From the IMG/VR virus record IMGVR_UViG_3300045999_007041, positions 1 to 30,168 of that record: a stretch of DNA of 30,168 nt; one strand, given 5' to 3'. Both the position numbers and the translations under genes were made by a program. The DNA comes from a virus. This document shows, one piece after another, positions 9,032-22,634 of this stretch (positions are counted from its first letter, which is position 1; each line of letters opens with the position of its first letter). The notes below the pieces were generated by a model, which saw only the letters and a program-made list of their open reading frames with translations, made no database searches and had not been told where the DNA came from.

Positions 9032-10041
9032 TGGCGATCAATAATCCTACCTGGATCAATTACCAGAATACGATGATCAGCGGCTCCACTGTGATGAATG
9101 CGAATACGGGCGCAGATGCTTGTGCGCCTAACGCGATGTCAATGGGGACGGCTGTAGCCACCACGTTTAACGGTTTCGCGACTCTAGCAGACGAAGACTG
9201 GGAGATCACATTTGAGCTGGGCGGGCGTATGCCCAACGGTCGGGCGTATCTGGGTCTATGCTCTGCTGATGTTGCGTTTATTGACAGCGTGCTGAATTTC
9301 GTCAACTGGTCGCACTGCATTTACATCACGACAGAAACTTGGTCGACAGGCACGCCACCGCATCCAGCAAACTCGGTTTACATTTACGAAGGCTCATCGA
9401 CGCCAAAATACTGGGTTGACGGAATCTGGCTGTCCAATGGGCAGATGATCGCCATCCGTAACCTGGGCGGCGTGTTGTGTTACCACATCGGCGACCGCGT
9501 AATTTATCGGTCACTGACACCACCTGTCTATCCCATCGAGGCATGTGTTGCACTGGCCTGTTATGACATGGAGGTGATGGGCCAGATTATTACTGGGCCA
9601 AGTGTAGGCGTGGGAACTGGTGAGATCGCGCCGGGGCCATCGTTTGGGTCTGGATGCTCTGCGCCGTGGATCTTCCCTTCGCCGTCCGCTTTGCCTCAAC
9701 CACCATTGGCTAATGCTCCCATCCCGGTACGCTTTCAGGAGACTGTTACGGATTGGCGCGAGTATTCACAGCGATTTGCCAACCAGGTCAGCGTCAGCAA
9801 CACGCGATTGACGGCACCTGTCAGAATGTTTGAGGTCGAATGGGATGGATTATCGGCCGAACAGGCAGCTATGCTTGACCAGCATTATGACTCGACCAGT
9901 GGCGGCATTAAGTTTTCGATGACCGTTCCCCATACCGATGAAGTTGTGTTGAATTGCCGATATGCCTCCTATACTCGCGGGTCGCACACTCGTTATTGGT
10001 CGCAGTCCAGGCAGGCAACGATTATTCAACAAGCCGTGTGA
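9031..10041 (+). CDS. Tail protein, paralogous C-terminal domain
   Basis: 336 residues. The start is ATG 9031, which shares one base with the upstream stop (TAATG) and follows TTGGAGG at 9014-9020. The N-terminal 210 residues are beta-rich and aromatic (DEDWEITFELGGRMPNGRAYLGL, YVYIYEGSS-like strands). They resemble concanavalin-like or spore-coat-type beta-sandwiches that bind sugars, though this is only an impression. The last 100 residues (RMFEVEWDGLSAEQAAMLDQHY, then MTVPHTDEVVLNCRYAS) mirror the C-terminal domain of the preceding protein, suggesting duplication. Likely part of the tail tip. Confidence 0.6.
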   Translation: MAINNPTWINYQNTMISGSTVMNANTGADACAPNAMSMGTAVATTFNGFATLADEDWEITFELGGRMPNGRAYLGLCSADVAFIDSVLNFVNWSHCIYITTETWSTGTPPHPANSVYIYEGSSTPKYWVDGIWLSNGQMIAIRNLGGVLCYHIGDRVIYRSLTPPVYPIEACVALACYDMEVMGQIITGPSVGVGTGEIAPGPSFGSGCSAPWIFPSPSALPQPPLANAPIPVRFQETVTDWREYSQRFANQVSVSNTRLTAPVRMFEVEWDGLSAEQAAMLDQHYDSTSGGIKFSMTVPHTDEVVLNCRYASYTRGSHTRYWSQSRQATIIQQAV

Positions 10042-19410: not shown

Positions 19411-19683
19411 TTAGCGAGTGCGCCAATAATGCGCATCACGCAGCCTGTCGTCTGCCCGCTGCTCTGTCGTCAATCGATCGTGGCAGGGGCCACAGATTGC
19501 CTCATACCACTGGCCGACAGGCTGCATCAGGATCGTAGACTCCCCGCACTCCCCGCACTCCTGATGGCAGTGGATGCAGTGATCACGATGTGGGAAGTGA
19601 GCGATCTTGGCGCAGGACGGGCAGACGGGATAGTCCGTCAGGTTGTCGTCACCACAGCGTGGGCACTCGGCGTCGCTCATCAC
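19411..19683 (-). CDS. Multi-cysteine zinc-ribbon protein
   Basis: 90 residues packed with metal-binding pairs: CPRCGDDN, CPSCAKIAHF, CIHCHQECGECGE and CGPCHDRL. At least four CxxC knuckles interspersed with His point to two or more zinc sites. Its role may be nucleic acid or protein binding. GTG 19683 gives a 4-base GTGA overlap with the upstream gene and a good distance to GGAGG; ATG 19680 (TGATG) is the alternative. Either way translation is coupled to the gene before it. No named family recognised. Confidence 0.65.
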   Translation of the reverse strand: MMSDAECPRCGDDNLTDYPVCPSCAKIAHFPHRDHCIHCHQECGECGESTILMQPVGQWYEAICGPCHDRLTTEQRADDRLRDAHYWRTR

Positions 19684-20171
19684 AGGCTCACCTCCTCCAC
19701 CTTGATGCCACTGTTGCGCAACACCATTGCGGTGTGCGCCTGATGCCGAGCGCGATACTCGGCCTCTTTGTGGGTTTCGGGTGCGCCCAGCGCGTGTCCG
19801 CCCTGGACAAGACGAAAAGCCGCCCAGTGATTATCTGTGCGGAAATCCTCGGTCGTCCCGTCAGGACGACGCACGTCGGCGACGTAGAGATTGCCGCCGC
19901 TGTTTGCTCGAGTGAAATATCGAGTCCCCCGAGTCCACTCGGGGACCGTGGTGATAGCCTCACCCTCTTCGAGCTGAGCGAGAGAGGGCAGGCCGCAGTC
20001 GATCCCACACTGACGACGGCGGTACACGTACTCCATCACCTGCTCATACGTGAGAAGCGCAGGCTGATCCGCCTCCTCGGCCGTCGGGCGAGGGGTGTTG
20101 CGAAACAGGTCCCAAAACTCAAGACGCGTGACGTAATTGGTCAGTGATAGCGTGGTGGTAATAGTCTTCAT
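19680..20171 (-). CDS. Hypothetical early protein
   Basis: 163 residues beginning MKTITTTLSLTNYVTRLEFWDLFRNTPRP, with AGGAGG just before the ATG. It is a soluble mixed alpha/beta protein with RRRQCGIDCGLPSLAQLEEGE and a basic, His-rich stretch near the end (HKEAEYRARHQAHTAMV). I do not recognise it. The shared MKTIT start with the gene at 20315-20584 may reflect common translation signals rather than homology. Confidence 0.6.
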   Translation of the reverse strand: MKTITTTLSLTNYVTRLEFWDLFRNTPRPTAEEADQPALLTYEQVMEYVYRRRQCGIDCGLPSLAQLEEGEAITTVPEWTRGTRYFTRANSGGNLYVADVRRPDGTTEDFRTDNHWAAFRLVQGGHALGAPETHKEAEYRARHQAHTAMVLRNSGIKVEEVSL

Positions 20172-20315: not shown

Positions 20316-20584
20316 TATGCGACCTCCGCAGGGATGGCGATGGTCTCGCGATATGGATCGCACGACTTGCCCGCGCCCGTCTTGCCCGCGCCGATGTAGA
20401 TCTCGGTGACGCACTCGGGCACCTCGACAGCGCACTCGAGCTGACGATCACCACGACGTGGCGCGATCTCAATAAATGTCATGCTGCCGTCAACCTTGTA
20501 CGCAACCCACCAATTTGCGCAACCCGTGCGATTCCAGCCCGAATTGGTCTGCTGACCTTTTGATTTGATCGTGATCGTCTTCAT
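20315..20584 (-). CDS. First gene of the leftward operon, hypothetical
   Basis: 89 residues from ATG 20584, chosen over ATG 20590 because CAGGAG sits at a proper six-to-seven base distance. The sequence MKTITIKSKGQQTNSGWNRTGCANWWVAYKVDG is followed by a beta-rich region and a glycine/lysine loop (YIGAGKTGAGKSCD). GAGKTGAGKS looks like a P-loop at first sight, but no ATPase fold surrounds it in such a small protein, so I treat it as fortuitous. The promoter at 20661-20633 lies about 42 bases upstream of the coding start. Confidence 0.6.
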   Translation of the reverse strand: MKTITIKSKGQQTNSGWNRTGCANWWVAYKVDGSMTFIEIAPRRGDRQLECAVEVPECVTEIYIGAGKTGAGKSCDPYRETIAIPAEVA

Positions 20585-20632
20585 TGTCATTCTCCTGTTT
20601 ACCGGCGGCTCCATTGCCGCTTCGATGGTGTG

Positions 20633-20661
20633 ACTATATCCCCACTAAGCTTGTTTGTCAA
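20633..20661 (-). promoter_or_regulatory. Main leftward promoter (TTGACA-17-TATAGT)
   Basis: On the minus strand TTGACA (20661-20656), a 17-base spacer and TATAGT (20638-20633) make a near-perfect sigma-70 promoter. Transcription would start near 20626 and run through the operon to 16182. Its -35 is arranged back to back with that of the rightward promoter at 20697, with the two TTGACA hexamers 34 bases apart. TTGTCAAT (20655-20662) and ATTGACAA (20696-20703) are an inverted pair, so one regulator could contact both. Confidence 0.75.
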
Positions 20662-20696
20662 TAAGAAAATATCGAGAGAGATGAATTATTTTTCGA

Positions 20697-20726
20697 TTGA
20701 CAAGCGGGGGAGTGGAAGCGTATTGT
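20697..20726 (+). promoter_or_regulatory. Rightward promoter for the HTH gene, likely leaderless
   Basis: TTGACA at 20697-20702, an 18-base spacer and TATTGT at 20721-20726. The expected start, seven bases after the -10, falls at 20733-20734, exactly on the ATG of the HTH gene. No ribosome site precedes that ATG. This predicts a leaderless mRNA. It faces the leftward promoter, forming a divergent control region. Confidence 0.65.
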
Positions 20727-20733
20727 CTGGCCC

Positions 20734-20979
20734 ATGGACGAGACGTATATCACAGTCACGGAGGCGGCGCATCTGACCGGATACCAGCGGCAGACGGTTC
20801 TGCACTGGATTCGGCGGGGATTCCTTCGCGCCGATCGAGTCGGGCGGTCCTGGATGATCCGCAGGGCCGACCTACTGGCGTATGAGCCGGAGCGGTCGGC
20901 ATTTGGGGCGGCGCAGGCATTGCCGCAGTACCTGCGCAACAAGTACCCAGCTCAGGTTGTGCAGTCCAACGATATTTGA
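20734..20979 (+). CDS. Small HTH protein (excisionase / MerR-type winged helix)
   Basis: 81 residues. TVTEAAHLTGYQRQTVLHWIRRGFLRADRVGRSWMIRRADLLAY is the helix-turn-helix_17/excisionase pattern: an alanine-rich recognition region, then a short wing. Such proteins act as excisionases or as transcriptional regulators. With divergent promoters immediately upstream it is a good candidate for the genetic switch regulator. The ATG lies directly at the predicted transcription start with no ribosome site. No integrase is visible in this window. Confidence 0.75.
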   Translation: MDETYITVTEAAHLTGYQRQTVLHWIRRGFLRADRVGRSWMIRRADLLAYEPERSAFGAAQALPQYLRNKYPAQVVQSNDI

Positions 20980-21019
20980 CACTTTTGCCCGTATGGTCTT
21001 TTTCGGCGTTGCGCTTGGC

Positions 21020-21376
21020 GTGATTGACGTATCAAGGGAGCGCATCAATGCAGGGGGAGGGGCTTCTGCGAAACTCCAGCGATCCTGGGACGGGCAAATG
21101 AGACACCGACGGGGACGGGCTGCCCGCCTCGTCTAGCCAGCCTAACGGCGGCGAATCGTCGGGAACCTCGGTCGAGTGAGCGGCCGAGAGGGGGAGGGTA
21201 ATACCTACACCTCCCCCGCTTACCAAGTTATGTGGGCAGCCGCAGGAGCAGCGGTTCTGGGGTGCAGCTGGTGGAGCTGTCACCTCGCCCACGCCAGTTC
21301 CCTGACAAGCGTTAGGGCGTTACATGGGAAATAAAGGTGTGTCTACCGGGAGGCTCTGCAGCCTCCCACTTTTTTT
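21020..21376 (+). ncRNA. Candidate structured noncoding RNA ending in an intrinsic terminator
   Basis: No convincing gene covers 20980-21386. Instead, many adjacent helices can form. They include 21076-21079/21085-21088; 21108-21119/21123-21133 (11 bp, one bulge); 21149-21153/21157-21161; 21167-21171/21184-21188; and 21190-21197/21210-21217 (8 bp). A three-way junction is closed by 21232-21237/21287-21292, with arms 21239-21243/21251-21255 and 21261-21269/21275-21284. Last come 21300-21306/21311-21317 and the terminator 21348-21367 with seven T. A 5' end and promoter are not clear; the RNA could be processed from the HTH gene transcript. I do not recognise a known class. A folded replication origin is an alternative, given the replication gene downstream. 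Confidence 0.5.
21348..21376 (+). terminator. Intrinsic terminator
   Basis: GGGAGGCT (21348-21355), loop CTGC, AGCCTCCC (21360-21367), then AC and seven T (21370-21376). The perfect 8-bp GC-rich stem and T run are textbook. The GAGG ribosome site of the next small gene begins right after the last T. Confidence 0.9.
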
Positions 21377-21386
21377 GAGGTGTGCA

Positions 21387-21530
21387 ATGGTGCTTGTGCT
21401 GTGGATGTTACTGGAAATCAATCGGATCTCTGCGCGGCCTGTCTTGGCTGAGATCGATGGACGGCCAACCCGGATCGAGCTTGAGCGGCCTGACGAACGA
21501 CCGACGCGATATATTCGCCCGCGTCGGTAG
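21387..21530 (+). CDS. 47-residue membrane-like small protein
   Basis: ATG 21387 with GAGGTG at 21377-21382 as ribosome site, immediately after the terminator T-run. The product starts MVLVLWMLLEINRISARPVL, a short hydrophobic helix, and ends in a charged Arg/Glu-rich tail (RPDERPTRYIRPRR). With no promoter between terminator and start, expression would depend on read-through, so it is a weak gene call. A longer frame upstream crosses the terminator and is unlikely. Confidence 0.4.
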   Translation: MVLVLWMLLEINRISARPVLAEIDGRPTRIELERPDERPTRYIRPRR

Positions 21531-21537
21531 TTTCCCG

Positions 21538-21565
21538 TTGACAAATAGTCTGTGCTGTAGATAAT
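21538..21565 (+). promoter_or_regulatory. Promoter of the replication module leader
   Basis: Perfect TTGACA (21538-21543), 16-base spacer and GATAAT (21560-21565), one mismatch from TATAAT. The expected start is near 21572, giving a leader of about 157 bases before the replication gene at 21729. That leader holds the pseudoknot-capable structure and a terminator. Confidence 0.7.
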
Positions 21566-21609
21566 CAATAGTGCGGTCGGGGGTGACGCCTCGAACAAAA
21601 CCCGCGAAA

Positions 21610-21719
21610 AGGTAAACGAAATAAACGACACGAGCCTTCAGTGAAGGCGGGTCAGGTTTGCGGCTGTCACCGCAATCGTTTACCTACCTGCCCGTTTTCA
21701 CTGAGGGCTTTTTGTTTTT
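21610..21719 (+). promoter_or_regulatory. Pseudoknot-capable leader with terminal T-tract upstream of the replication gene
   Basis: Three pairings are visible: A, AGGTAAACGA (21610-21619) with TCGTTTACCT (21676-21685), 10 bp perfect; B, AGCCTTCAGTGAA (21633-21645) with TTCACTGAGGGCT (21697-21709), 13 bp with one G-U; C, TTGCGG (21658-21663) with CCGCAA (21670-21675). A and B cross, so they form a pseudoknot or exclude each other. B is followed by T(5)GT(5), an intrinsic terminator. GGAG and the ATG of the replication gene follow at once. This is the layout of an attenuator, riboswitch or protein-controlled leader. I recognise no known riboswitch class. Confidence 0.65.
21633..21719 (+). terminator. 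Terminator/attenuator in the leader
   Basis: The 13-bp stem 21633-21645/21697-21709 closes a 51-base apical region that itself contains a perfect 6-bp hairpin. The T-rich run at 21709-21719 follows directly. It is larger than a simple terminator, and it lies within the 5' leader of the replication gene, so conditional termination is more likely than constitutive termination. Confidence 0.7.
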
Positions 21720-21728
21720 GGAGATTCA

Positions 21729-22634
21729 ATGAGAGCAAGTGATCTGCTTGATAGGCCCATAGCGTTTCATCGATGCCTTGCCGAGCTTGGCGGATCGGTC
21801 AACGCTGGCCTGATGCTCAGTCAGGCTCTTTACTGGGCCAAGCGAACAAAGGCGGCTGATGGTTGGTTCTGGAAGACTGCAGAGGAATGGCAGGAAGAGA
21901 CTTATTTGACCAGAACCGAGCAAGCAACGGCAAGAAAGCAACTCAAGAGACTGTCTTGCTGGCAAGAAGAGCTTCGTGGAGTCCCGGCAAAGCTCTTTTA
22001 TCGGGTTGATCTTGACGAGCTTGATCGACTGCTTTTTGAAAACAAGGATGCAGGAAACGTGCAAGCCAGTTTGCAGGAATCAAGCAAGCCAGTTTGCAGG
22101 ATTCCTGAAAACAAGAATTCAGGAATCATCAAACCATTCTTATTAGCAGAGACTACTACAGAGATTACATCAGAGACTACAGCAGAGAGTGTGAGGGATC
22201 GTCAGGTTGTGGTGATCTCGCAGGAGACGACACCAGCCAGACCGCACACACCACAGATTGAGGATGCTGTATCAATAGCAGTTAGCATCTTTCCTCAGAT
22301 GGGGATCTGGCAGCAGGACGTGATTGCCAACGGTGACATCAATCACCTGGCCCTTTGGCGGAAAGCGTGTGAAGACTGGCGAGATAATCGATACAGTCTC
22401 CGTAATATCACCGGCCTGATCGATAGCTACTATCGACTTGAGAAGCAGAACGCAAGAGATAAGGAGTACAACAACAATGGACAGAATCGACCAGTACGCG
22501 AAAGCCACAATGAGCGAGCAATCAGAGAGACCGTCGAATACATCGAGCGTCTCACCGGAACGACAGTCCGCGATAGCGACGCTCATTCAACAGACACGCT
22601 CTTTAAGCTCCCTGCCGCTTTCGGTGGGGAATGA
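21729..22634 (+). CDS. Phage replication protein with N-terminal winged helix (replisome organiser type)
   Basis: 301 residues. RPIAFHRCLAELGGSVNAGLMLSQALYW, then GWFWKTAEEWQEETYLTRTEQATARKQLKRL and LRGVPAKLFYRVD form the conserved winged-helix N-terminus of phage replication initiators/DnaD-like organisers, which bind origin DNA. A low-complexity Thr/Glu linker (TTTEITSETTAES) follows. The C-terminal domain (about 175-301) contains WRKACEDWRDNRYSLRNITGLIDSYY, likely for helicase or partner contact. GGAG lies at 21720-21723. The 3' 158 bases overlap the next gene in another frame. Confidence 0.75.
   Translation: MRASDLLDRPIAFHRCLAELGGSVNAGLMLSQALYWAKRTKAADGWFWKTAEEWQEETYLTRTEQATARKQLKRLSCWQEELRGVPAKLFYRVDLDELDRLLFENKDAGNVQASLQESSKPVCRIPENKNSGIIKPFLLAETTTEITSETTAESVRDRQVVVISQETTPARPHTPQIEDAVSIAVSIFPQMGIWQQDVIANGDINHLALWRKACEDWRDNRYSLRNITGLIDSYYRLEKQNARDKEYNNNGQNRPVRESHNERAIRETVEYIERLTGTTVRDSDAHSTDTLFKLPAAFGGE

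Follow-up and report, generated by a model that had tools for sequence, protein, structure and literature searches.

A conserved modular structured RNA ahead of the replication operon in a group of phages

Genomic context of the locus

The window analyzed here is an IMG/VR virus record of 30168 bases, in which we examined the region 20980–21386. The region follows a small HTH gene (20734–20979, + strand), which encodes an 81-aa excisionase/MerR-like protein and occupies the position of a Cro-type gene. A sigma-70-like early rightward promoter (20697–20726, + strand; TTGACA-18-TATTGT), predicted from its sequence pattern, would drive the HTH gene together with the RNA; no other promoter-like site was found on the + strand from there to the RNA. 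A TTGACA at 20976 was rejected as the RNA's promoter: it lies across the HTH stop codon, lacks a −10 element at suitable spacing and is missing from the related contig L007. The stop codon ends at 20979, and the RNA starts 4 nt beyond it, with the first helix from 20984.

Behind the terminator of the RNA lies a conserved 47-aa ORF (21387–21530, + strand) of no known family, also present in L002, L007, L008 and L041. It sits between two structured RNAs and has a hydrophobic N-terminal part followed by ARPVLAEIDGRPTRIEL. A separate promoter (21538–21565, + strand; TTGACA-16-GATAAT) serves the replication operon and is followed by the second RNA, described below as the replication-operon leader, and by the gene for an O-like replication initiation protein (21729–22634, + strand). 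On the left side, 20580–20735 is a divergent control region with promoter-like sites on either strand and an inverted-repeat-like arrangement around TTGTCAATAAGAAAATA...TTATTTTTCGATTGACAA, common to L003 and others; a conserved GCGGCAATGGAGCCGC hairpin stands there where the leftward RecT operon begins.

Predicted fold of the region

The predicted RNA fold of 20975–21380 has an energy of −185.7 kcal/mol (z = −3.6), which none of 100 dinucleotide shuffles equaled. In a scan of 400-nt segments on both strands, 20980–21379 (+) ranked first of 200, with the + strand folding better than the − strand, and the next intergenic block, 21381–21780 (+), ranked second. The sequence-only reading had described the region as far more structured than its neighbors; we accept this for the composition-corrected energy, since the region comes first in the scan, but the right-hand neighbor is nearly as structured. 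The third strongest excess of folding (z about −4.7) was observed at 19581–19980 (−), over an ORF in the leftward operon.

The boundaries drawn by that reading proved accurate to within a few bases (HTH stop codon ending at 20979, terminator T-run at 21370–21376), and the three-way junction and closing terminator that it described are present, as are more than ten helices. All elements lie on the + strand. The first, module C (20984–21098), has a closing helix (20984–20992/21090–21098), a conserved strand GGTCTTTT (about 20995–21002), inner hairpins (21008–21046 and 21050–21069) and a GATC-loop hairpin (21075–21089). Module A (21100–21165) consists of GAGACA and a three-way junction (21106–21112/21156–21162) that contains a CCTAACGG hairpin (21136–21152). 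An 8-bp hairpin (21167–21188) separates it from module B (21190–21229), a long G-rich/CCTCCCC hairpin (21190–21217) followed by the conserved strand CTTACCAAGTT. A further three-way junction (21231–21293), closed by TGTGGGC/GCCCACG and bearing a variable-length hairpin (21259–21286), is followed by a 7-bp hairpin (21300–21317) and an intrinsic terminator (21348–21376) with an 8-bp stem (21348–21367) and a T7 run.

The absence of a convincing gene, also part of the earlier reading, was confirmed: the ORFs that cross the region match no PHROG and are interrupted in relatives by indels, some of 1 base and some of other lengths, and comparison of homologous phage regions revealed no coding conservation.

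Compensatory changes among close relatives

The same RNA occupies the same place in L002 (90% identical), L007 (80–82%) and L041 (79%). We aligned these with the window and scored them against a hand-drawn structure of 106 pairs, which was derived from the window's own fold; changes on both sides of a pair do not follow from this derivation. Standard pairs fill 95.5% of the 423 pair cells. Thirteen pairs are changed on both sides, where shuffles averaged 7.4, and covariation scores 0.178, compared with a shuffled 0.110 ± 0.013; 0 of 500 shuffles reached either value, a figure that is not a probability, because four sequences are few and related. When partners were slid by 1–3 columns, pairing fell to 39–48% and double changes to 0–2.

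The 8-bp hairpin at 21167–21188 occurs in three different sequences among the four relatives, all fully paired (CTCGGTCG/CGGCCGAG, CTCGACCG/CGGTCGAG and CTCGGTCA/TGACCGAG), the 7-bp hairpin at 21300–21317 shows a compensatory C-G to U-A change, and the terminator of L007 and L041 has another stem in place of the window's, still paired. Eight pairs are retained through G-U on the + strand and therefore fit an RNA read rightwards. Compensatory changes in homologous phage regions had been set beforehand as the test of a novel structured RNA, and together with the lack of coding conservation and of any Rfam match, the changes found support that proposal. What the comparison establishes is a family of structured RNAs that is conserved as RNA and not as coding sequence.

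Diverged relatives and modular organization

Diverged contigs were gathered via replication protein alignment, RecT and leader-pattern scans. About nine further phage lineages (L040, L008/L045, L010, L011/L044, L110, L116, L118, L121/L156 and L124) carry versions that blastn does not align, in the same place after a small HTH gene and ahead of the replication operon. Local alignment to L040 gave z 11.3 for the window and z 14 for L041; further values were 6.5 and 5.1 for L007 to L110 and L008, 7.9 and 6.9 for L118 to L116 and L110, and 8.5 and 6.0 for L008 to L010 and L124.

Module C is the most widespread module, found in all members and twice in some. It comprises a closing helix of 7–11 bp, 3–5 nt, UUCUUU (GGUCUUUUU in the window), a variable hairpin-bearing insert, an nGAUC-loop hairpin and, 1–2 nt further on, the strand that completes the closing helix. 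A descriptor with this layout matched the window, L002, L007, L041, L008, L040, L110, L116, L118, L121 and L124, as well as L073/L088, an apparently unrelated pair; it had no match in 3.75 Mb of block-shuffled sequence and none in the leftward operon. On inspection, L011/L044 (L011 was missed by the strict form of the descriptor), the second copy in L118 and L010 also fit, the last with a GCTA instead of a GATC loop, which the descriptor missed and which was omitted from the model below. In the closing helix nearly all cells pair, and a single position shows as many as five pair types (in this comparison the second L118 copy was displaced by one base). Among eight sequences outside the window clade, covariation reached 0.473 compared with 0.181 in shuffles (0 of 500), and at most 0.173 when partners were slid. 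A covariance model, R1, built from these eight sequences recovered two copies that it did not contain, one in L008 (E 5.6e-4) and one, its second, in the contig of L121 (E 1.1e-6). Since the R1 search did not recover the window clade, the window is tied to the diverged versions by the descriptor, local alignment and synteny.

In module A, a junction carries CCUAACGG in a loop; in module B, ACCAAGUU or a similar sequence comes after a G-rich hairpin. The window has the order C-A-B-junction-terminator and most other members A-(B)-C-...-terminator; L118 and L156 carry two copies of module C, while L116, the minimal version, has module C without A and is essentially module C plus terminator. This variation in module order argues against a single fixed global fold. 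The HTH coding sequence runs at its 3′ end into module A in L110, L124 and L156. A strong intrinsic terminator stands at the end of most members; L118 has no strong terminator after the RNA, and in L156 (the contig of L121) the last module C uses its closing helix as the terminator stem.

A possible second, degenerate module C was observed in L040 at about 9408–9560 (UUUGUUCU ... GGGAUCCCC, closed by GGGATGCTCGC/GCGAGCATCCC), where the window has the 21231–21293 junction. Six matches of the pattern CCTAACGG...GGRATCC in viral contigs, and a pattern match in L005, were judged to be due to chance.

tRNA-like domains in some members

Between positions 21225 and 21226 of the window numbering, L007 carries an insertion of about 80 nt that folds into an acceptor-like stem of 7 bp and a T-arm bearing UUCAAUU. 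Comparable domains are present in L008 and L011/L044 and absent from the window, L002 and L041. They score 19–23 bits as tRNA-Sec in Rfam, below threshold; ARAGORN recognized no tRNA in the relatives' inserted domain, and no tRNA was found in the window. The domains in L007, L008 and L011/L044 share with tRNA and the tRNA-like domain of tmRNA the 7-bp acceptor-like and T-arm-like helices and a TTCAATT/TTCGATT loop, but, unlike tRNA, they have no 7-nt anticodon loop and no encoded CCA, and the anticodon arm is enlarged.

A separate tRNA-like element with an enlarged anticodon loop lies just before the replication leader in L010 (1713–1857, −), L011 (3120–3222, −) and L044 (4361–4450, +). In L010 the first hairpin of the leader is partly repeated ahead of this element, whose segment 1714–1795 passes RF00005 at 37.1 bits.

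A second structured RNA in the replication-operon leader

Directly behind the replication promoter, 21569–21715 (+ strand; z = −5.7) forms a second structured RNA. In the window this leader consists of a UGACG-loop hairpin, a 10-bp pseudoknot, a GUCA-loop hairpin and a terminator hairpin with a T-run that immediately precedes the start codon; the leader hairpin sequence is GGGGUGACGCCC. The leader was compared in the window, L002, L007, L008, L010, L011, L040, L041, L044, L110, L116, L118, L121 and L124. In all 14 sequences the leader can pair with the segment preceding the descending terminator arm to give a pseudoknot of 7–12 bp, with many different, covarying sequences, and the UGAC and GUCA loops, which are able to kiss, are invariant throughout. 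L008 has two leader copies. All leader-bearing contigs that span the interval contain module C, or its variant in L010. No antisense pairing between the upstream RNA and the leader was consistent among members. The leader may act in attenuation or in the manner of put. A search for the leader pattern in genome contigs gave 21 matches, all judged by context to be chance, and yielded no host.

Comparison with known RNA families

Across the whole window, no Rfam 15 family reaches its gathering score, and at a permissive threshold (E up to 10) only chance microRNA and snoRNA models appear, with no riboswitch. The sequence-only reading had named the large phage RNAs GOLLD and ROOL for comparison without recognizing the region as either; membership fails for lack of an Rfam match, while the comparison in kind is apt. 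GOLLD (RF02032) had no match in the Rfam scans or in 14 phage records, a search in which the control genomes were also without a match; likewise ROOL (RF03087) had none in the Rfam scans or in a separate model search that also left the control genomes without a match.

Some GOLLD members contain a tRNA in a linker, and their length is often above 800 nt (PMC12286853). Like GOLLD, the present family is a large many-helix phage noncoding RNA with variable outer parts around conserved ones, and the tRNA of some GOLLD members has a counterpart in the tRNA-like domain of some relatives here. It differs in length (about 300–640 nt), in lying behind the first early gene and not near a tRNA island, and in that the insert is only tRNA-like and not a tRNA recognized by ARAGORN. 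With ROOL it shares the character of an ornate phage or prophage RNA without a known protein partner, and it differs in size, neighbors and modules.

Isolate phages gave no real match to the window, L116, L044 or L118 regions, and plasmids none to the window region. A literature search, largely without subscription papers, found no description of the RNA, although one may exist elsewhere. Overall, the comparisons of sequence support a new modular phage RNA family that is not in Rfam.

Possible role of the RNA

At about even odds, we favor a discrete noncoding RNA, made early and ending at its terminator, over a put/nut-like cis element. The first early rightward transcript would run from the promoter at 20697–20726 through the HTH gene and end, with this RNA as its distal part, at the intrinsic terminator at 21348–21376, which, perhaps with processing near the HTH stop codon, would yield a discrete stable RNA that acts in trans early in infection. 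Its acting surfaces would be the unpaired UUCUUU strand and the GAUC-loop hairpin of module C, which are common to nearly all members; the tRNA-like domain would be an accessory of some, and may give an enzyme that binds or processes tRNA its point of entry. We favor this model because most members end in strong terminators, because the replication operon has its own promoter, so that its genes need no read-through, and because the last module C of L156 is itself a terminator stem. Counting against it are the lack of a dedicated promoter, the varying module order, the absence of a strong terminator in L118, and the overlap of module A with the HTH end, which suits a cis element equally well or better.

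Such a cis element, controlling early-operon transcription like HK022 putR or lambda nutR, is a serious though less probable rival: the nascent RNA would modify its own polymerase to pass the terminator at 21348–21376 and later ones. In lambda, the order is PR-cro-nutR-tR1-cII-O. The series of promoter, HTH gene, RNA, terminator, small ORF and O-like gene parallels it, and this order, with module A overlapping the HTH end in L110, L124 and L156, gives the analogy its weight. Judged by sequence pattern, the RNA has an early promoter on its upstream side and terminators on its downstream side; it adjoins or overlaps the HTH coding end, has tandem modules and is reduced in L116 essentially to module C and a terminator. 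It begins about 250 nt past the expected start site, and putR about 270 nt past PR (PMC9378689). However, HK022 put is about 70 nt long, has two stem-loops and stands in both early operons (PMC9378689), whereas the RNA described here is a multi-domain RNA of 300–640 nt, four to nine times that length, in one operon only; no short two-stem-loop RNA copied in both early operons, as HK022 has in putL and putR, was found. The replication operon's promoter and the terminator stem in L156 also argue for the discrete RNA.

It is improbable that the RNA serves the small ORF behind the terminator as a regulated leader, whether riboswitch-like or protein-binding. The structured RNA, terminator, Shine-Dalgarno sequence and 47-aa ORF are consecutive in the window, L002, L007, L008 and L041, and the conserved unpaired bases and tandem modules are aptamer-like, but L010, L011 and L044 have no such ORF behind the RNA, that of L110 and L116 is of other size and sequence, and Rfam found no riboswitch. 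The earlier suggestion of a structured replication origin, or of a single-strand initiation site acting as DNA, now appears very unlikely: the region adjoins the replication initiator gene, and covariation alone does not distinguish RNA from single-stranded DNA, but the eight G-U-kept pairs lie on the + strand, which folds better than the − strand and reads into the oriented terminator. A chance fold or hidden protein-coding region is hardly credible, since the ready folding of G+C-rich sequence and the 84- and 86-aa ORFs crossing the region are set against covariation, frame-breaking indels and the lack of a family match for these ORFs.

It is conceivable, though we hold this tentatively, that a new modular phage RNA class, with a tRNA-like domain in some members, and the co-occurring pseudoknotted leader together control the expression of early or replication genes without a dedicated phage protein, the RNA being either an RNA-only antiterminator or a noncoding RNA that is abundant and assembles with itself. 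Phage RNA families as complex as this are very few (GOLLD and ROOL), and their functions are poorly understood. The present family shows clear covariation and offers minimal (L116) and tandem (L118, L156) versions, and close relatives with and without the tRNA-like domain, in a fixed place before the replication genes; this natural variation makes the role of large phage RNAs directly testable.
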